Shown piece by piece: positions 113 to 11,248 of a stretch of DNA of 40,439 nt (positions within the stretch are counted from its first letter, which is position 1; every line of letters starts with the position of its first letter). The notes under the pieces were generated by a model that did no database searches, was not told where the DNA came from, and worked only from the letters and a program-made list of their open reading frames with translations. Position numbers and translations under genes: made by a program. The stretch comes from Caldithrix sp. (GTDB lineage Bacteria > Calditrichota > Calditrichia > Calditrichales > Calditrichaceae), in contig WJIP01000034.1 of NCBI GenBank assembly GCA_014730185.1, positions 1 to 40,439 on the forward strand. Reading direction: 5' to 3'.

Positions 113-1516
113 TTATTCCCAACCATCCGGTAAATGACCATCTACAACAACCGATTCATTAGCTTTCTTCTCATCTTCATCCACATCATCGGCAAACAGA
201 TAATATTTTAAGTTTTCCCGATTTCCGAAACCTTCTTTGGTATGACAACTTTCCCAGCATTGTACACCACCGCTGGTATCGGTGCGGGCCGTATATTTAC
301 GGATGGAATGTGGTGTGGTATATTTCCATGTGGGATAATCATCATAAGCCGGCAAATCTGCTGAAGCCGGCCCCCAGTTTTCGTAGCTATCGCGGTCTAT
401 AGGAATACGCCGCAAGGTCGCAAACTTATGACGGAATCTACCTGACTCGGTTTTACGCGGATTTAAACCGATTTTAAAATTCTCCGTAACGGTGTAATTC
501 GGATCGGTTTGCCACTGACCTTCCACATGGCAGGATGTACAGTTATTGTAAGGTTGAGAATGGCACACATAACAGGACATATCATCAAAATGGGTTGAAT
601 GATAAGTGTTCGCCGTAGACAAATCTTCGGTATGACAGCCATCCTCACAGGAAGGCAGCAATTCATACTCATAGCGATCTTTGTTTTGCGGTGCCGCACT
701 GTGCATTTCAGTTTGATCATGGCAGTTCATGCAGGTAAAGCCCATTTCGGCATGCACATCTTCCGGACGCGGCGGGAAGATATCATAATCACCTTCAAAG
801 TCATGCCCCACACGGGTACCGTGACAAGCGGTACAATTATTTTCCTGATCCGGGGTTTTAAAAAAACGATGGTATTTAAACTTAGGAAAACCGCCGCCGG
901 CACTGTTGGGTACGGCAATATGGCAATCACCGCAAGTAGCATGACAATCAGTACACTCCGAGGCAAAACCGTCTTTGGTACTTTGTGGGCACTGCTCAAA
1001 CTCATCCACACCGGAGCGTAACGCCAACCATTTTTTATAGCCCCATTGCTGCAGATGGAGGCTGTTCTTAAAAGACCCGGCTATGGATTCGTGACAATCA
1101 CTTTCACCGCAGGTGTTTTTACCATTATTGAGAATCTCGGAGGGATCCAAAACCAACCCCTCGTGCGCCACTTCCATATTATTGGGCGCCTTATTGTTAC
1201 CCTCATGGCAATCCACGCAAGATAAATACTTAAGATGTTCATCCAAATCTTCTATGGTTTGACTACCAGCCAGACGGATATAAACTTTTTCCCAGGGCTC
1301 CAACTGAGCCACCTCACCGCCTCAGCCAACGGCGCCGCCGCCCTCGCCTCCTTCTTCCTCTTTAGCCAAGGCTTTCAGCCGATCCTCGTTCGTATGGCAA
1401 TAAATACAGCCATCATCCCCTTCATAGGCATTGGTAACCGTCTCTTCTTCTTCAAGAAACTGAGTACAGCTCATAACCAATGCAAAGATGAACAGTATTG
1501 AAAATATTTTCTTCAT
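113..1516 (-). pseudogene. 11-haem c-type cytochrome lipoprotein interrupted by an in-frame TGA
   Basis: One reading frame runs from the ATG at 1516 to the TAA at 113, broken only by a TGA at 1324-1322. The upstream part encodes a lipoprotein signal peptide ending in a lipobox (ALVMSC) and one haem motif, CIYCH. The downstream part (about 399 residues from a GTG at 1312) carries ten more haem motifs. Seven are CXXCH; three are unusual: CGESDCH (CX4CH), CEDGCH and CWESCH (CX3CH). Without the first part the cytochrome would have no export signal, so the two parts must be read together to work. A single GGA-to-TGA change in the Gly-rich linker, a sequencing error, or recoding could explain it. 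It diverges from the quinol-oxidising operon at 2370 and probably carries periplasmic or surface electrons. The family beyond multihaem cytochrome c is not recognised. Confidence 0.8.
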
Positions 1517-2369: not shown

Positions 2370-3272
2370 ATGGGTAAACAATCCCGTCGTGATTTTCTAA
2401 AAACCAGTGGATTAATTGGTGCCGGACTATCCGGCTTGTCCAGTAAAAAAGCCCATTCCGGTGTCAAAAAAATAATTGCCGACGACCGCATGGGTGTCCT
2501 TGTAGATACTACACTCTGTATCGGCTGCCGGCGTTGTGAATATGCCTGCAAAGGTGCACACGATATTGATCCCGGACGTATTGAACAGTATGATGATCGT
2601 TCTGTCTTCAAAGAAATGCGCCGCCCGCAGTATAATGCTTACACGGTGGTAAATGAATACACCGATCCGGAAAATCCGGATAATCCCTCGAATGTGAAGG
2701 TACAGTGTATGCACTGCGATCATCCCGCCTGCCTGTCGGCCTGTATTGTCGGAGCTTTTTCCAAAGAAGAAAACGGTGCTGTAATCTGGGATGAAGGCAA
2801 ATGTATAGGTTGTCGTTATTGTATGATTGCCTGTCCGTTTCAAATCCCTCAATTTGAATACCATAAGGCCCTGGAGCCGGAAATCCGTAAATGTGATTTA
2901 TGCTGGGAAAGCCGCACCAAAGACGGCGGTGTACCGGCCTGCGTTGAGATATGTCCTATGGAAGCATTGGTTTACGGCAAGCGTTATGAATTGCTGCAAT
3001 TAGCCCATGAGCGCATTGAAAAAAATCCGGAGCGTTATCTGGATCATGTGTACGGGGAGAATGAAGTGGGTGGTACTTCCTGGCTTTATCTGGCAGCTCA
3101 GGATTTTACCAAGCTGGACTTTCCGCAATTAAGCGATGAACCGGCCCCCGGCGCTTCCGAAAAATTACAACATGCAATTTTTTCCTATTTTATCCCTCCC
3201 GCTTCTCTGTTTGCCCTTTTAGGCGGAATTATGTGGATCAATCGAAAACAAAATACGACCGAAGAAGAATAG
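2370..3272 (+). CDS. Tat-exported 4x[4Fe-4S] electron-transfer protein (HybA-like)
   Basis: This 300-residue protein starts with a Tat signal (SRRDFLK at residues 5-11, then a hydrophobic stretch), so it is folded before export. Four cysteine clusters follow: CIGCRRCEYAC (50-60), CMHCDHPACLSAC, CIGCRYCMIACP and CDLCW...CVEICP. This is the four-cluster pattern of HybA/NrfC/PsrB-type subunits. A C-terminal hydrophobic helix (about 268-286) probably anchors it facing the periplasm, as in HybA. GAGG precedes the ATG. The NrfD-like gene starts 10 bases downstream. No Mo/W or Ni-Fe catalytic subunit is nearby, so it probably passes electrons between the membrane quinone module and the 13-haem cytochrome. 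Confidence 0.9.
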   Translation: MGKQSRRDFLKTSGLIGAGLSGLSSKKAHSGVKKIIADDRMGVLVDTTLCIGCRRCEYACKGAHDIDPGRIEQYDDRSVFKEMRRPQYNAYTVVNEYTDPENPDNPSNVKVQCMHCDHPACLSACIVGAFSKEENGAVIWDEGKCIGCRYCMIACPFQIPQFEYHKALEPEIRKCDLCWESRTKDGGVPACVEICPMEALVYGKRYELLQLAHERIEKNPERYLDHVYGENEVGGTSWLYLAAQDFTKLDFPQLSDEPAPGASEKLQHAIFSYFIPPASLFALLGGIMWINRKQNTTEEE

Positions 3273-3282
3273 GAGCCTGCCC

Positions 3283-4527
3283 ATGTCCGAATTATCCGAA
3301 CCAAGACCGGTTAATCATAAATTTTTAACGCCTGGTGTTATCGTATTATTAATTCTGGCCGCCAATGGCCTGATTTGGGTATTCCTTAGATTTATACTCG
3401 GTATCGGTGCCGTTACTAATCTAAACAATGAATTTCCCTGGGGCATCTGGATCGGTATTGATGTGGCCGCCGGAGTCGCTCTCGCCGCCGGAGGCTTCAC
3501 CACATCCGCTCTGGCGCATATTTTTCACCGGGAGCATTTTCATGATATCGTTCGCCCCGCACTTTTAACCGCAATGCTGGGCTATACTTTTGTTGCCCTT
3601 GGTGTATTTATTGACCTAGGCCGCTATTACAGTATCTGGCACATGTTTATTTACTGGAACGGTAACTCCGTGTTGTTCGAAGTTGGTGTCTGTGTTCTAA
3701 CCTATGTTACGGTGTTGTATATAGAATTTATACCAATCGTAACCGAACGTTTTGTGGGCCGTGTAGACTTACCCGGCTTATGGGCTCGTTTTAACCGCGC
3801 GCTGGATAAAGTATTGCGATTCCTGGACCGTAACATCAACCGGGCCATGTTTTTCTTTATTATTGCCGGCGTGGTATTATCCTGCCTGCATCAAAGTTCA
3901 TTGGGAACACTGATGATGATTGCCGGGCAAAAAATTCATCCTTTGTGGCAATCGCCTATATCACCTTTACTGTTTTTGATCTCGGCCATTTCTGTCGGCT
4001 TTCCCATGGTAATTATGGAATCAATTATTTCTCACCGCTCATTTGGTTTGAAGGATGAAATGGATGTGCTTTCCAGTCTGGCCAGATTTATTGGCCCGCT
4101 TTTAGGCGTTTATCTGGCATTTAAAATGGGCGATATGGTTATCCGCGAAACATTTGTCTATTTAACGGAATTCACCCTGGAAAGCGTTCTATGGATTATC
4201 GAAGTATTAATTGGTGTGATTATCCCTTTGCGCATGTTTTTATGGGATAAGGTCCTGCAATCCAAACCATTGATTTTTGCCGCTTCTTTAATGGTTATCT
4301 TTGGCGTATTTCTCAATCGGTTCAATGTGTTCATCGTCGCTTATACACCCTCTTACATGACGACAAAATACTGGCCTTCTATTGGTGAAATTTCCGTTAC
4401 CCTGGGATTCATCGCTATAGAAGTGCTTCTGTATCGTATTTTTGTAATGATTTTTCCGGTCATTGCTCAACCAATGCGGCGCCCGCAAGTAAAAACCAAG
4501 TATGCAATTCGAGGAATTATACGATGA
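3283..4527 (+). CDS. NrfD/HybB/PsrC-like quinone-interacting membrane protein
   Basis: The 414-residue, highly hydrophobic protein has about ten membrane helices and matches the HybB-type branch of the NrfD/PsrC family (HybB is about 390 residues). Family members exchange electrons between menaquinol and a periplasmic iron-sulphur partner without haem. GGAG lies seven bases before the ATG. The last codons overlap the next gene as ATGA, implying translational coupling. With the FeS protein and the 13-haem cytochrome it would form a quinol:cytochrome c oxidoreductase resembling the Hmc, Qrc or alternative complex III plan without a catalytic molybdoprotein. The direction of electron flow cannot be read from sequence. 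Confidence 0.9.
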   Translation: MSELSEPRPVNHKFLTPGVIVLLILAANGLIWVFLRFILGIGAVTNLNNEFPWGIWIGIDVAAGVALAAGGFTTSALAHIFHREHFHDIVRPALLTAMLGYTFVALGVFIDLGRYYSIWHMFIYWNGNSVLFEVGVCVLTYVTVLYIEFIPIVTERFVGRVDLPGLWARFNRALDKVLRFLDRNINRAMFFFIIAGVVLSCLHQSSLGTLMMIAGQKIHPLWQSPISPLLFLISAISVGFPMVIMESIISHRSFGLKDEMDVLSSLARFIGPLLGVYLAFKMGDMVIRETFVYLTEFTLESVLWIIEVLIGVIIPLRMFLWDKVLQSKPLIFAASLMVIFGVFLNRFNVFIVAYTPSYMTTKYWPSIGEISVTLGFIAIEVLLYRIFVMIFPVIAQPMRRPQVKTKYAIRGIIR

Positions 4528-5630
4528 AACCACTTCTGATCATTACATTCATCACTCTTGTTTCGGCATCATTATGGGGACAAACCACTAAACATCATGC
4601 CAGTATGCCCATAAAATGTTCCAAATGCCATACATGCAATAATCCAACCTATCTGGATCCCTGCCTGAAGGTATGCCCCGATTTTAAAAGAGCGGGAGTC
4701 AGCGTTCGGCACACAGCGGATGAAGCGCCTGAAATCATTAAAATTGATACACTGGCCAATGTCTATCAAGCCAGTATATTTACCCATAAACTACATGCGG
4801 AAATGTCGGCCATGTCCGGTGGCTGTTCACTGTGCCATCATCACAATCCGCCGGGACCAATATTGCAATGTAGCGATTGTCATCAGGCAAAAATTTTGCG
4901 TGATGATTTAACCAAACCCGGTCTGAAAGGTGCTTACCACCAACAGTGCTTGAATTGTCACAAAAGCTGGAGTCATGCCAACAACTGTGAAGTTTGCCAT
5001 GCCCGTCAGACCGATGCTGAGCAAACCGCCTCCACAGCCGACAAAGAGGCTTTTAAGGGAAAAGAACATCCGGAAGTCACTGAACCGGAAAAAAAAGTAT
5101 ACCAAACCGGATTTGAATCGCTCCCAGTGGTTACATTTTATCACGACGATCATGCCCATCGTTTTGGGTATGAATGTGTGGATTGCCATAAAAATGAAAG
5201 CTGTCGACGCTGCCATGATACCCTAGCCAAACCCTCCGAATTTAAGGAAGATGTTCATGAACCCTGTATGGCTTGTCACGCAGAGGCCGTTGAGAACAAA
5301 TGTACGGTATGTCATGCTAAAACCGAACAGGGTCGATTTGAACATGCCAATGTGGGATGGCCTTTGGAATCCTACCACCAAACGTTACATTGCCAGAGTT
5401 GCCATGGGGTGGATAAAACGTTTAATAAATTGAATAGTAATTGTAAATCATGCCACAAAGACTGGACGCCGGACAACTTCAATCATACGGTGACCGGCTT
5501 ACGTCTGGATGAAGTGCATGCCTCATTCGATTGTAAATTGTGCCATGAAAACCGTGCTTTTTCCGAAAACGCCAGTTGTTCAAATTGTCACGAAGGCTAT
5601 ACGTATCCGGCTCAAAAGCCGGGAAATTGA
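4524..5630 (+). CDS. 13-haem periplasmic c-type cytochrome
   Basis: The 368-residue protein has a Sec signal peptide (cleavage near SLWGQ) and 13 CXXCH motifs, from CSKCH near the N-terminus to CSNCH near the C-terminus. Histidines outside the motifs are frequent, consistent with bis-His haems of class III-like multihaem cytochromes. Right after the first haem there is a compact cysteine-proline pattern (CHTCNNPT, then PCLKVCPD) that is not itself a haem motif. A charged, haem-free linker (about residues 165-215) splits the protein into two haem-rich halves. Its start overlaps the NrfD-like stop by four bases. It is probably the periplasmic electron acceptor or donor of the FeS/NrfD module. 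Confidence 0.88.
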   Translation: MKPLLIITFITLVSASLWGQTTKHHASMPIKCSKCHTCNNPTYLDPCLKVCPDFKRAGVSVRHTADEAPEIIKIDTLANVYQASIFTHKLHAEMSAMSGGCSLCHHHNPPGPILQCSDCHQAKILRDDLTKPGLKGAYHQQCLNCHKSWSHANNCEVCHARQTDAEQTASTADKEAFKGKEHPEVTEPEKKVYQTGFESLPVVTFYHDDHAHRFGYECVDCHKNESCRRCHDTLAKPSEFKEDVHEPCMACHAEAVENKCTVCHAKTEQGRFEHANVGWPLESYHQTLHCQSCHGVDKTFNKLNSNCKSCHKDWTPDNFNHTVTGLRLDEVHASFDCKLCHENRAFSENASCSNCHEGYTYPAQKPGN

Positions 5631-5764
5631 TCGTTTATCATTATAAGATATGAACTAAAAAAGAGAATCGTCGGAATTTTAGAATAAGGAAAATGGAACA
5701 CCCAGTCCACGGCATCTAAATAAACAAATGCCTCAACTCGGTGTATTCAATTTTAGTTAAGCTT

Positions 5765-7630
5765 ATGTTTAATAAAATCGGTTTGAAGTTAATTATTGCC
5801 GCAGGGACGGCAATCATCATTATTATCGGTATTTATGCTTATGTAAATATCGCCTCCCAGAAAAATATTTTACTGGAGGAAGTTAAACGCCATTCGCAGC
5901 AGTTAAGCGAAACTATAATTAATAGTACCCAGTATTCGATGCTGGCTAATCGACGCCAGGATACGCATAATATCATCACCAGTATTTCACAGGAAAAATG
6001 TATCCGGGATATTCGGGTACTGAACAAAGAAGGACGAATCATCTATTCGTCCGATTCCAGCATAATCGGTCACATGGTCGACCGCAAAGCGGAGGCCTGC
6101 TACACCTGCCACGCAACCAACGAACCTTTGCACCGGCTTGATTTCGAAGATCGTACACGTATCTTTCGCCCGCACGCAGACTCCAACAGGGTTTTCGGTA
6201 CCATTACAGCCATATACAATCAGCCATCTTGCTACCAGGCCAGTTGTCATGCGCACTCATCGGAACAAACCGTTTTGGGAGTCCTTGATCTGACCGTTTG
6301 CTTAGAACCCATCGATGCTACCATACAGGAAGCAAAAATTAAAGTCGCCATTTTTGCCATTATCGCCATATTCGGATTGGCCGGTGTTATCAGCATAGTA
6401 GTGCGTCTACTGATATCCAAACCCATCAATAATCTGGTAAACGCTACCAATGAGGTTGCTGCCGGCAATCTTAATTACCATATCAAAGACCTCAAAAAGG
6501 ATGAGCTGGGCCAACTGGGCAGTTCATTCAATAATATGACCAAGAAATTATCCGAAGCCCGAATGCAATTATTTCAATCGGATAAAATGGCATCCTTAGG
6601 TCGGTTAGCTGCGGGTGTGGCTCATGAGATCAATAACCCGTTAACCGGTATTTTAACCTATTCCAGCTTCCTGCTTAAACGAACAAAAAACTACCCCGAA
6701 TTGGAAGATGATTTACAGGTTATTGTCAGGGAGACCAAGCGCAGCCGGGAAATCGTAAAAGGATTGCTCGATTTCGCCCGTCAGTCTGTTCCCAAAAAGA
6801 AAGAAGTGATCATTAATGACATCATCAATAAGGCCAAAGAAGTGATTGAAAACCAGCTAACCATTAATCAGATCAAATTAGATTTACAGCTTCGGGAAAA
6901 ATTACCACCGGCCAAAGTGGATGCCAATCAGATGCAACAGGTTTTCATTAATATGATAGTTAACGCCATCCATGCCATTAATCATGATCACGGTAAAATT
7001 ACCATCGTCACAGACCTGACCGATTTAGTTCCCCGGGGCATTGCCCAAATCAAACACGCGGTTTGCCCCAAAGGTCATGATTTAATGGATCATTCTCAAA
7101 AAATAGGTGCTTTACCCAGTATTAAATTACATGTTCGCAAAAATAAACAGGAACGCGATATCTACCTGGATGCAGTTTACGGTAAAAATCGCCACCAATA
7201 TGGTATCAAGCCGGAGCGCAAAAGCGATTTTGAAATCTTTTGTCCAAAATGCGATATGTCCTTATTAGAGGATTATAATAATTGCCCGCAATGCGAAGCA
7301 CCCATCTACTCTATAGAAATTCCGGGGAAGGGTATGCTGCGCGGTTGCCTAATGGAGGATTGCAAGTGGCAATACTGGGACGAGATTGAAAAAGAGGGCA
7401 AAAAACCTTTCATCGAAATAAAAATCCGTGACAACGGGACCGGCATCCCCGATGAAAATCTGGATAAAATTTTCGAACCCTTTTTCACCACCAAAGGACA
7501 AAAGGGCACCGGTCTGGGCCTGGCGGTTATTTGGGGTATCCTGGACAATCATGAAGGCAATATCAGTGTATCGAGCACGGTAGGCGAGGGTACGGAATTT
7601 ACGCTGCGTTTACCGGCTGTTTTATCATAG
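5765..7630 (+). CDS. Haem-c-binding sensor histidine kinase with a zinc-ribbon insert
   Basis: I start the 621-residue protein at the ATG at 5765, giving a clean N-terminal membrane helix; a GTG at 5741 is in frame but neither has a clear Shine-Dalgarno. Order: TM helix (about 5-27), periplasmic domain with CYTCH (112-116) and CYQASCH (156-162, CX4CH), second TM helix (about 192-218), HAMP, HisKA (AHEINNP, phospho-His near 287), then HATPase_c. The ATPase domain is interrupted after the N box by about 110 residues containing CPKGH, CPKC, CPQC and CLMEDC, which look like zinc ribbons, before the G boxes ([18 protein letters not shown]). The two haem motifs suggest it senses redox state, NO or another haem ligand outside the membrane. 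The two receiver genes downstream are likely partners. Confidence 0.88.
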
Positions 7631-7694: not shown

Positions 7695-8495
7695 ATGATT
7701 GATTGGAAAAAACATGCAAAAGCTTATGATATATTAGCCGTCGACGATGAACAGGTCATTATTGATTCGGTCAAAAAACTAAGCGCATTCGAAGACTGGA
7801 AAGTGGATACAGCAAAGCAGGCGGAGGATGCTCTGGATAAAGTACGGTCAAATACCTACAGACTTATCATTTGCGATATTATGATGCCGGAAATTGACGG
7901 CTTTCAGTTTTTAGACGAACTGAAAAAACATCATCATGCCATTCCTGTTATCATGACCACCGGATATTCTACGGTTGAAAATGCTGTCAAGTCTTTAACC
8001 AAAGGAGCCATCGATTTTTTACCGAAACCCTTTACCGTTGATGAATTAATAAGCACTGTAATTCGTGGTTTAAAATTTGGTCAACTCGAATTCGGGCATG
8101 CCGGTCACTCCTCTACCGAAATCGTTGTTCCTTGTCCATCAGGACATTATCACCTGGGCTATTCCAGTTGGTCTAAACTGGATGACGACGGTTCGGTACG
8201 TATTGGCTGCACGGACCTTTTTTTGAAAACTCTTGATTCTATAGATCATGTGCATTTATGGGATCTGGAAAGTGATATTATCCAGGGGAATACCTGCGCC
8301 CATATAGACAGCGAGGATGAAATCAGTCATAATTTATTGGCGCCGGTAACCGGTCGCATTATTGAACGCAATGAAAATTTAATCGATAATATCGAGCTGA
8401 TTGAAAAAGATCCGTATTTTGAAGGATGGCTATATCGGGTGATTCCTTCGAATCTGGATTATGAATATAAATATTTATCACCCTGTAACGATTAA
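7695..8495 (+). CDS. Response regulator with a GcvH-like C-terminal domain
   Basis: This 266-residue cytoplasmic protein has an intact receiver (DD at 17-18, phospho-acceptor D61 in ICDIMMPEIDG, K111). It is followed by a domain like glycine-cleavage H protein (about 135-255), recognised by GHYHLGYSSW, the beta-strand VRIGCTDLFLKTL, LLAPVTGRIIERNENL and DPYFEGWLYRV. In true GcvH the lipoylated lysine lies seven residues before the APVSG block; here that position is glutamate, so it cannot be lipoylated there. No DNA-binding or enzymatic output is visible, so the GcvH fold is probably a protein-interaction output. It lies 65 bases after the haem kinase and is the likely phosphorylation target. 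Confidence 0.85.
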   Translation: MIDWKKHAKAYDILAVDDEQVIIDSVKKLSAFEDWKVDTAKQAEDALDKVRSNTYRLIICDIMMPEIDGFQFLDELKKHHHAIPVIMTTGYSTVENAVKSLTKGAIDFLPKPFTVDELISTVIRGLKFGQLEFGHAGHSSTEIVVPCPSGHYHLGYSSWSKLDDDGSVRIGCTDLFLKTLDSIDHVHLWDLESDIIQGNTCAHIDSEDEISHNLLAPVTGRIIERNENLIDNIELIEKDPYFEGWLYRVIPSNLDYEYKYLSPCND

Positions 8496-8547
8496 GTCAT
8501 TGAAATAATCCATTTAAAATAAAAGGCCGAAATATAAGGAGATTGAA

Positions 8548-9723
8548 ATGGGTGTTCTACTTTTAATAATTGCCGTAATTATTTTTGTCATTGCCGATAT
8601 TATTATCCGGACGGTGTTACGTCGATCCAGAGAAAAACGGCTAAGGCAACAACGCGAAGAAGCATTGGAAAAAAATCTTCGTCTCGACTTCAGTCATGAA
8701 GCCAAAACCCTGAAACGTGTGGAAGTTGATAAACCAAAGGCACGTATTTTGGCAGTAGATGACGAGGAAATAATTCTGGATAGTTTCCGCAAAATTCTTG
8801 TGCTGGAAGGCTATTCAGTCGATACAGTGGAAACCGGTCAGGAGACTTTGGGTCTTATCCAAAAACATCATTATGACTTTTTGTTTGTAGACCTTAAAAT
8901 GCCCGCGATGAACGGAGTGGATGTCTGTAAATCGGCCAAACATCTAAGGCCGGATATTGATGTGATTATTATCACCGGTTATGCATCGGTAGATACGGCC
9001 GTTGAAACCATGAAATATGGGGCAATGGACTATGTGCAGAAACCATTCACCGAGGAAGAACTGGTAGACATGGTTAACAAGTTTGTTATCCGGCGGCAAG
9101 ATCGGATTAAAAAGCAACTTTCCTCTAAGGTTCATATCACTCATATGGATGAAACGGAAAGTACTGACTCGGTTGAATTTGCCATCCCCGGTGGCGTCTT
9201 TATTTCAACAGGACATACGTGGGCACAGGTAATACCTGATGGTTTGGTGCATGTGGGCCTGGATGACTTTGCCCGTAAAATTATCGGCCGCGTTGATAAT
9301 ATCGAAATGCCCAATCTTGGTATGGAAGTAAAACGGGGCGACCTCCTGTTCAGCGCCAAGCAGAACAACACTTCTATACCGTTTCACGCGCCGGTCAGTG
9401 GCAAAGTATCCGAAATCAATAAAGCACTGCTCGATAATCCCGAACGTATACAGGAGAGCCCCTACGACAAAAACTGGATTTGTAAAATTGATGCCAGCGA
9501 TTTGGATACCGAACTGTCAAAATTAAAAATCGGACAGGCAGCCGTTGATTTTTATAATGAAGATATAAAAAGCCTGCACGACTATATCAAACAATCGGTC
9601 ACCAGCACTAAGGATGATGCTGATGTTCCTGCCGATGGTCATGTTTATCTGGGCGAATTGGAAGCGCTTACGGAGAAAGATATTAACGCTATTATCAGTG
9701 ATTTCTTTAAACGCACAGAATAA
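8548..9723 (+). CDS. Membrane-anchored response regulator with a GcvH-like domain
   Basis: The 391-residue protein starts with a hydrophobic helix (about 2-24) and a basic stretch (RRSREKRLRQQR), placing the rest in the cytoplasm at the membrane. The receiver follows (DD at 71-72, acceptor D115 in FVDLKMPAMNG, lysine in VQKPF). The next domain (about 188-320) resembles GcvH: GHTWAQVIPDGLVHVGLDDFARK, then HAPVSGKVSEIN and SPYDKNWICKI. The residue aligned with the lipoyl lysine is asparagine. The last 70 residues are mixed and unrecognised. AAGGAG precedes the ATG. It pairs with the shorter receiver-GcvH protein upstream and sits between the sensor kinase and the Otr-family reductase. A terminator follows. 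Confidence 0.85.
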   Translation: MGVLLLIIAVIIFVIADIIIRTVLRRSREKRLRQQREEALEKNLRLDFSHEAKTLKRVEVDKPKARILAVDDEEIILDSFRKILVLEGYSVDTVETGQETLGLIQKHHYDFLFVDLKMPAMNGVDVCKSAKHLRPDIDVIIITGYASVDTAVETMKYGAMDYVQKPFTEEELVDMVNKFVIRRQDRIKKQLSSKVHITHMDETESTDSVEFAIPGGVFISTGHTWAQVIPDGLVHVGLDDFARKIIGRVDNIEMPNLGMEVKRGDLLFSAKQNNTSIPFHAPVSGKVSEINKALLDNPERIQESPYDKNWICKIDASDLDTELSKLKIGQAAVDFYNEDIKSLHDYIKQSVTSTKDDADVPADGHVYLGELEALTEKDINAIISDFFKRTE

Positions 9724-9744
9724 CATCTTAATTTTGATAAAATC

Positions 9745-9786
9745 AAAAAATCGGGGACTTCCTTATTCGGATGTCCTCGATTTTTT
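9745..9786 (+). terminator. Rho-independent terminator after the receiver-GcvH genes
   Basis: The arms AAAAAATCGGGGAC and GTCCTCGATTTTTT pair with one mismatch around a 14-base loop and end in six T. It separates the sensor/regulator run from the octahaem cytochrome gene, which should therefore have its own promoter. Confidence 0.75.
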
Positions 9787-9880
9787 AATCATAATTGATT
9801 AGATTATAACCAACTTTGGCTGCTACCTATACTATTCAGAAAGTAATCTATTTTTATTAAGCTATAACGCGGAGTTCACT

Positions 9881-11248
9881 ATGTTTAAATCTTTACATAC
9901 AATTTTACTAATAGCCGTTGTGGTTCTGACAATGCCATTGCTTCTACGTAGTCAATCGATGCATCAGGAGGTCTTTCAGCAGCCCTATGATGATCCCAGA
10001 CAAGTTACGGCCATGTGTCTTGAATGCCACGACACAGCTGCGGAAGAAATTATGCAGAATATCCACTGGACATGGGTCAAAACCATTCAGGATATTCCCG
10101 GCCACGAAAATGCCCAAAAAGTGGGCAAAAAAAATCTATTTAACAATTTCTGTATTAATGTAAAGTCCAACTGGCCCCGGTGTACTAGTTGCCACATCGG
10201 ATACGGCTGGAAAGACGAGTCCTTTGACTTTGAAGATGAAAATAATGTGGATTGTCTGGTTTGCCATGACAATACCGCTACCTACAAAAAAACACCAACG
10301 GGGGCGGGCATGCCTGCTGATACCGTTAACTTACAATACGTGGCTCAGAATGTTGGTAATCCGACCCGGGAGAATTGCGGCAAGTGCCACTTTTTCGGCG
10401 GAGGCGGTGAAAACGTAAAACACGGAGACCTTGATTTAGGACTGATCAAACCGGAACGGGATTATGATGTGCATATGGGATCGGGCATGGTTTGTCAGGA
10501 TTGCCACATCACCGAAGCGCATCAAATCAAGGGACAATCCATGGCTGTTTATGCCAGTTCCGGTGATCGTATTTTGTGCACCGACTGTCACGGCAACGAA
10601 CCGCATAATTCGGAGCTTATTAACGGCCATGGAGAAAAAGTTTCCTGTCAAACCTGTCACATCCCACAGTTTGCCAAGGATCAGCCCACTAAAATGTATT
10701 GGGACTGGTCAACCGCCGGCAAAGACAGTTCAGCACCTAAAGATCAATATGGAAAAATGACGTATCATAAAAAAAAGGGCTCGTTTAAATGGGGCAAAAA
10801 CGTCGAGCCCGAATATTACTGGTACGATGGCACTTCGCAACGTTATTTACTGGGTGACACCTTTAAACCGGATGAAGTTGTATCATTGAATCATCCGAAT
10901 GGGCAACTCCGGGATGATCAAAGTAAATTAGTGCCCTTTAAAGTGCACCGCGGAAAGCAGATCTATGACGATCAAAATAATTATCTGATTGTACCTAAGC
11001 TCTACGGTGGTTTCTGGAAACATTATGACTGGGCCAAAGCGGCCGAAGAAGGCATGGAATCGGTTGATCTGGAATACAGTGGATCCTATGCCTTCGTGGA
11101 AACCGAAATGTTCTGGAAAGTGAATCACATGGTCAGCCCGAAAGAACAGGCCCTTAAATGTAACGATTGTCATGGAATGGATTCCCGAATGGACTGGAAA
11201 GCTTTGGGCTATCAAGGCGATCAAATGTATCCCAAAAACAGGGAATAA
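9881..11248 (+). CDS. Octahaem cytochrome c, tetrathionate reductase (Otr) family
   Basis: The 455-residue protein has a Sec signal peptide (LLLRSQS) and eight CXXCH motifs: CLECH, CTSCH, CLVCH, CGKCH, CQDCH, CTDCH, CQTCH and a distal CNDCH. The family blocks CTSCHIGYGWKDESFDF, VDCLVCHDNTATYKK, CGKCHFFGGGGENVKHGDLD and DVHM match Otr of Shewanella. That enzyme reduces tetrathionate, nitrite and hydroxylamine in vitro; its physiological substrate is debated. The long haem-free section between haems 7 and 8 is also typical. GGAG precedes the ATG. Its position after the quinol module and haem sensor suggests it is the terminal reductase that module feeds, acting in the periplasm. Confidence 0.9.
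   Translation: MFKSLHTILLIAVVVLTMPLLLRSQSMHQEVFQQPYDDPRQVTAMCLECHDTAAEEIMQNIHWTWVKTIQDIPGHENAQKVGKKNLFNNFCINVKSNWPRCTSCHIGYGWKDESFDFEDENNVDCLVCHDNTATYKKTPTGAGMPADTVNLQYVAQNVGNPTRENCGKCHFFGGGGENVKHGDLDLGLIKPERDYDVHMGSGMVCQDCHITEAHQIKGQSMAVYASSGDRILCTDCHGNEPHNSELINGHGEKVSCQTCHIPQFAKDQPTKMYWDWSTAGKDSSAPKDQYGKMTYHKKKGSFKWGKNVEPEYYWYDGTSQRYLLGDTFKPDEVVSLNHPNGQLRDDQSKLVPFKVHRGKQIYDDQNNYLIVPKLYGGFWKHYDWAKAAEEGMESVDLEYSGSYAFVETEMFWKVNHMVSPKEQALKCNDCHGMDSRMDWKALGYQGDQMYPKNRE

Follow-up and report, generated by a model that had tools for sequence, protein, structure and literature searches.

The 40,439 bp window analysed here (contig WJIP01000034.1 of assembly GCA_014730185.1, Caldithrix sp., phylum Calditrichota) contains two open reading frames, both on the forward strand and together spanning exactly the 7695-9723 interval given in an earlier sequence-only reading of this DNA, whose products each combine a response regulator receiver with a domain resembling the glycine cleavage H-protein, GcvH. 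The first, R1 (7695-8495; 266 aa, with 71 relatives), has a receiver at residues 13-122 (7731-8060; Pfam Response_reg, 8e-28) with D61 (7875-7877) as the phospho-acceptor, and a GcvH-like domain at residues 157-257 (8163-8465; Pfam GCV_H, 2.5e-18). The second, R2 (8548-9723; 391 aa, with 74 relatives), begins with a transmembrane (TM) helix (residues 2-20, 8551-8607; hydropathy 3.29) that is found in all 74 relatives, followed by a receiver at residues 67-176 (8746-9075; 7.9e-30) with phospho-acceptor D115 (8890-8892) and a GcvH-like domain at residues 222-335 (9211-9552; 3.1e-21). Its C-terminal tail (residues 355-391, 9610-9720), as read from alignments, is like the 'DGG ... W ... FF' tail of a group of receiver-free TM-GcvH-like proteins described below. 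The E-values of both domains in both proteins are far above chance, and R1 has no TM helix while R2 has one at its N-terminus, in agreement with the earlier description of one soluble and one membrane-tethered protein.

Both receivers are complete, as had been proposed, with D17/D18, D61, T89 and K111 in R1 and D71/D72, D115, T143 and K165 in R2. D61 and K111 are kept in all 71 R1 relatives, the T89 position being Thr (67) or Ser (4), and the R2 receiver residue set, including D115, T143 and K165, is kept in 74/74. Response_reg and GCV_H are present in every member scanned with Pfam (59 R1 and 54 R2 sequences); above the Pfam cut-offs these are the only domains in R1 and R2, and a DNA-binding domain is absent from both. 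R2 members also have weak matches to NQRA_N (36/54) and RnfC_N (3/54), which are barrel-sandwich domains of other respiratory complexes. In having a complete receiver and no DNA-binding domain, R1 and R2 are similar to the CheY-like regulators that act by protein binding, but differ from them in that the output is a GcvH-like domain.

GcvH (PF01597; PDB 3a8i, 3ab9, 1htp) carries the aminomethyl intermediate between the P, T and L proteins, and the R1 and R2 domains have the same fold throughout, the lipoate-carrying hairpin included. They differ in lacking the lipoyl lysine, in being fused to receivers and, for R2, in being anchored to the membrane, and they score below the NCBIfam cut-offs for GcvH: R1 has 71.8 against 117 (NF002270) and R2 has 76.9 against 117 (NF002270) and 69.7 bits against 115.85 (TIGR00527). 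Normal GcvHs of the same phylum keep the V-K motif, including the one encoded elsewhere in the same genome (G000:C182), which passes the NCBIfam cut-offs with 183.8 and 166.4. AlphaFold models built on alignments of the relatives have mean pLDDT values of 92.8 (R1) and 82.8 (R2), with a pTM of 0.54 for R2, such that its domain arrangement is unreliable. The top Foldseek match of both models is the E. coli H-protein. Superposition on GcvH had been set beforehand as the point on which assignment to this fold would stand or fall, and the modelled domains match solved H-proteins with TM-scores on target of 0.87 for R1 (best match 3a8i) and up to 0.93 for R2 (3ab9, 3a7a).

The former lipoyl hairpins lie at residues 200-215 of R1 (8292-8339; including H212) and residues 266-280 of R2 (9343-9387). 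Taking the lipoyl position to be at -8 relative to the proline of the AP(V/I/L)(S/T)G block identifies E209 in R1 and N274 in R2, the Glu and Asn reported from the sequence. Compared with E. coli GcvH, R1 has one more residue in the hairpin and R2 one fewer, and the strict residue count is therefore only approximate; no alignment places a Lys at the lipoyl position of the window R1 or R2. Alignment of this position across all receiver-GcvH relatives, which had been suggested as a check, finds Lys in 0/71 R1 proteins, where the residues are Glu (28), Gly (23), Asp (10) and others, and in 7/74 R2 proteins, where the position is unconserved (Asn 32, Thr 9, Gly 7, Gln 7, Lys 7 and others). Absence of the lysine is a family trait of R1 and R2. 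The seven lysines among the 74 R2 proteins look like drift at an unconserved position of a basic hairpin; where GcvH has a Glu just before its lipoyl lysine, most of the R2 proteins have Lys (48) or Arg (16).

The genes upstream of R1 are transcribed in the same direction and code for components of a membrane redox complex together with a sensor kinase. They include an HmcB/HybA-like iron-sulfur (FeS) protein that is Tat-exported and tail-anchored by a hydrophobic C-terminal segment (2370-3272; NCBIfam HmcB 9e-96 and HybA 2e-77, both below cut-off), a HybB/HmcC-like membrane quinone subunit of the NrfD family (3283-4527; Pfam NrfD 2.6e-24; NCBIfam HybB 2e-107 and HmcC 6e-82, below cut-offs), and a periplasmic c-type cytochrome of class III/c7 (4524-5630; Pfam) with 13 CXXCH motifs, and thus 13 hemes, and partial similarity to HmcA (4e-12). 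The 629-residue histidine kinase (5741-7630) has two TM helices, a periplasmic loop with two c-type heme motifs, and HAMP, HisKA and HATPase_c domains. The heme motifs, CYTCH (residues 120-124) and CYQASCH (164-170), lie at 6098-6250, and their Cys and His residues are kept in 66/66 kinases. Downstream of R2 is an octaheme cytochrome of the tetrathionate-reductase family (9881-11248, forward strand; TIGR04315 1.9e-178). Between R2 and the octaheme gene, at 9735-9795, an imperfect hairpin followed by a T-run can be read from the sequence and is a possible terminator; it is not listed by the terminator scan, which is limited to short loops, and the matches of the promoter and terminator scan are near chance level. 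A multiheme c-type cytochrome with 10 C(X2-4)CH motifs is transcribed divergently from the operon (113-1312, reverse strand), and is kept near it in several Calditrichota genomes.

Conservation of this arrangement was assessed at those R2 loci that have 5.2 kb or more of upstream DNA; these 58 loci are mostly from Calditrichota and Ignavibacteria, with members in KSB1, Elusimicrobia and Verrucomicrobia too. The exact order FeS-NrfD-c7-kinase-R1-R2 is found in 47 of these, and counted singly the genes upstream of R2 are the kinase (56), R1 (55), FeS (55), NrfD (54) and c7 (51). A complete kinase gene immediately precedes the R1-R2 pair at almost all loci. The octaheme cytochrome gene is present in only 3/58 and is thus placed outside the core operon. 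No gcv gene was observed within the conserved operon. R2 proteins of this kind occur in about 32/245 genomes of the class searched, and all 14 R2-containing genomes in a set of 40 Calditrichota genomes have an NrfD homologue, which in one (G009) is more distant and sits beside a second R2-type gene. Three genomes (G042, G044 and G427), most of them drafts, have the kinase and R2 (and R1 in two of the three) with no recognisable NrfD of this type, and in G454 the NrfD match is weak (1.3e-9). These loci are related by descent, and the shared operon is no proof of contact between its products. At one locus (L126, 5463-8885) R1 (at 6858) and R2 (at 7734) lie in the same open frame, uninterrupted by a stop codon; the upstream part of this frame resembles an out-of-frame reading of the kinase region, and for this reason the apparent fusion was not used as a Rosetta-stone argument.

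The ATPase domain of the kinase contains a Cys-rich, zinc-ribbon-like insert of ~120 residues (residues 430-553, 7028-7399; C442, C501, C504, C515, C518, C536 and C541), positioned between the N-box region and the G1 box. It is carried by the kinases that are paired with R1, with its cysteines conserved, and is absent from the kinases of a related cassette containing an NtrC-type regulator (see below). All of the complete kinases with long spacing (54 by the motif rule, plus those of L103 and L112, which match one CxxC) are beside R1, and none of the 13 complete kinases with short spacing is, save that of L121, whose neighbouring cassette supplies the R1. As the kinases are related by descent, this pairing is correlative and does not test contact.

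The same genomes also encode receiver-free GcvH-like proteins of about 220-295 aa, most of which have one N-terminal TM helix and the C-terminal 'DGG' tail, and which are likewise without a conserved lipoyl lysine. Their genes adjoin those for FeS and NrfD proteins, a diheme kinase, an NtrC-type regulator and a Peptidase_M54-like protein, and at some loci this kinase-NtrC cassette and the R1-R2 cassette are side by side. Loci with receiver-free proteins that have both the TM helix and the 'DGG' tail include L047 (9154-12901), L050, L074, L076 and L080, among others. In five proteins (L080_12, L074_12, L076_12, L051_7 and L053_6) the TM helix is replaced by an N-terminal Cys-rich segment (C.WM.AG...YQLC......CE.C). 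The Peptidase_M54 (archaemetzincin-like) protein is a constant component of the kinase-NtrC-NrfD cassette (e.g. L047 16017-16544, with equivalents beside NtrC in L074, L080 and L146-L148).

In a tree of the H-like domains, resting on 128 columns, the R2 domains are monophyletic (support 99) inside a clade (97) that also includes the receiver-free GcvH-like proteins, and the R1 domains form a separate clade with support of 71. R2 looks like one of these TM-anchored proteins to which a receiver has been added, after the helix and before the GcvH-like domain. Five TM segments of one receiver-free branch match HmcD (E-values 8e-6 to 4e-4), with 19-26 bits against a cut-off of 34 for this 38-residue model; the TM segment of R2 itself has no HmcD match, which limits what a reading of direct control by R1 and R2 can take from the resemblance. 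With the R2 domain nested in a family that flanks FeS-NrfD genes, its likely partner is the Hmc/Hyb/NrfD-type electron-transfer complex encoded by the operon; the partner of R1 may differ, given that its domain branches apart with modest support. These relationships suggest that the H-like domain is most likely an accessory of Hmc/NrfD-type complexes that has been brought under putative phospho-control.

Hmc is a known transmembrane complex of six redox proteins, among them the small membrane peptide HmcD, and the D. vulgaris hmc locus also carries the regulator genes rrf1 and rrf2 (PMC10924467); the cytoplasmic redox partner of Hmc is not known (PMC4215793). The operon described here shares with the Hmc/Nhc (HmcABCDEF) and Hyb-type NrfD complexes a tail-anchored FeS protein, a HybB/NrfD quinone subunit and a multiheme cytochrome, with subunit scores that are below the curated cut-offs despite clear similarity (HmcB 320.5 against 420, HmcC 276 against 550). 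It differs in that its cytochrome has 13 hemes and that of Hmc has 16, in that no HmcE or HmcF open reading frame is seen between the FeS gene and R2, and in the addition of two receiver-GcvH proteins and a diheme kinase. A module of FeS protein, HybB and octaheme cytochrome has been described for which no conserved flanking genes are reported (PMC10924467). The window contains all of its elements (the tail-anchored FeS protein, the HybB-like subunit and the tetrathionate-reductase-family octaheme cytochrome), although here it is the kinase and R1/R2 that are conserved and the octaheme gene that is not.

A complete receiver, no DNA-binding domain, a neighbouring heme kinase and domain cousins linked to NrfD together suggest direct control of the complex. 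We tentatively propose, rating the chance of this as just short of even, that R1 and R2 form the output side of a two-component system that senses redox state, and that they act directly on the operon-encoded Hmc/Hyb-like (NrfD-type) respiratory complex. The proposal builds on the observed domain content, lysine loss, operon, tree position and insert association. The periplasmic diheme domain of the kinase would sense the redox state of the cytochromes in the periplasm, a pool to which the 13-heme cytochrome probably belongs, and the kinase would then phosphorylate the receivers of R1 and R2, as their complete catalytic residues and the operon pairing suggest. Phosphorylation might alter the docking of the GcvH-like domains on the NrfD/FeS complex at its cytoplasmic face, a location for these domains that is inferred from the receiver, with R2 presumably tethered beside the complex by its TM helix and R1 coming and going from the cytosol. 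The outcome could be gating of electron flow to or from quinone, or of assembly of the complex. The GcvH fold would in this case be a lipoate-free docking domain that was part of Hmc/NrfD-type complexes before receivers were added, an order suggested by the synteny, by the tree position of R2 within the receiver-free family and by the HmcD-like TM helix found among those cousins. The phosphotransfer, the docking, the gating and the direction of control are the parts of this scheme that we infer. A fuller version, in which the phosphorylated receivers move lipoate-free H-fold domains on or off the NrfD-type complex and so let redox state control quinone-linked electron flow quickly and without acting through genes, is possible but more doubtful.

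The earlier suggestion that the fold is reused as a signalling output thus stands insofar as a lipoate-free domain has been put to use on a functional-looking receiver; the domain does not appear to be a mere generic output, as that of R2 falls inside a receiver-free, NrfD-linked family. The redox- or metabolic-enzyme partner suggested with it finds support for redox in general terms, from the neighbouring genes, and none for the enzymes of glycine cleavage or lipoate metabolism. Mimicry of GcvH by the R1 and R2 domains so as to regulate those enzymes is very improbable: the H-protein fold is kept, but the Glu before the lipoyl lysine has become Lys or Arg in 64/74 R2 proteins and a normal GcvH is encoded elsewhere in the genome, and the link to glycine cleavage was rejected on the absence of neighbouring gcv genes. 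Lipoylation of either protein on a lysine at a shifted position is scarcely credible; the Lys at the aligned position of 7/74 R2 proteins and the basic residues common on the hairpin strand would permit it, but the position is unconserved, is Glu and Asn in the window proteins and is never Lys in R1, and lipoylation at a shifted lysine was rejected on the alignment of the R1 and R2 relatives. A different redox role is raised by conserved residues of R1, where C147 (65/71), C264 (63/71), C201 (55/71) and H212 (69/71) might make the protein a thiol switch acting through its N- and C-terminal cysteines. The precedent is LbpA, a GcvH-like protein that Hdr-like sulfur oxidation requires; it has a single conserved Cys close to either end of the GcvH fold and a strictly conserved lipoyl lysine (PMC6067878). 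In LbpA the GcvH fold has been recruited to a redox pathway, as it may have been in R1, and most R1 members also have a Cys near each domain end, but LbpA has the lysine that R1 lacks and no receiver, no sHdr genes are seen in the R1-R2 operon, and several R1 members have lost the cysteines with the operon kept; we regard the switch as improbable. No Cys pair flanking the domain as in LbpA is found among the conserved columns of R2. A metal site in R1 (C147, C201, H212 and C264), which seemed invariant in 13 sequences, was weakened at 71 and was set aside. Lysine-bearing GcvH-like proteins of 152-156 aa with a Cys near each end, similar to LbpA, are present at L020 and L024 (class-level relatives).

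Two further explanations retain the two-component system and part from direct control of electron flow at the last step. The H-like domains could be structural or oligomerisation modules that stay off the complex, with R1 and R2 serving as phosphate sinks, relays or adaptors for some other output such as an unlinked transcription factor. The three genomes with kinase and R2 and no recognisable NrfD of this type are consistent with this, as is the related cassette in which kinase and NtrC serve transcription and which adjoins the R1-R2 cassette in some loci; it fails, however, to explain either the receiver-free, lysine-less H-like proteins beside FeS-NrfD or their HmcD-like TM helix, and we consider it unlikely. 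Alternatively, the H-like proteins could help to assemble or mature the NrfD/FeS/cytochrome complex, with phosphorylation timing its assembly and not electron flow. The operon linkage would be the same, and a subunit and an assembly factor are indistinguishable by sequence, but the resemblance of the cousins' TM helix to HmcD favours a stoichiometric subunit, and this explanation strikes us as distinctly unlikely.

To our knowledge few response regulators act on enzymes instead of genes, and a respiratory complex under direct phospho-control would be an uncommon case. If it is correct, phospho-gated control of NrfD-type complexes would be founded on a broader group of H-like subunits that is so far undescribed. 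The receiver-free cousins are even more common than R2, and suggest that lysine-less H-like accessories of NrfD-type complexes have been overlooked. In the part of the literature covered, outside which most subscription journals lie, we found no report of receiver-GcvH proteins or of lysine-less H-like proteins beside NrfD. The R1-R2 family is widespread in Calditrichota and Ignavibacteria and includes Stygiobacter electus, the record of which is named as a strain and not a metagenome-assembled genome, such that the system may be testable in culture.
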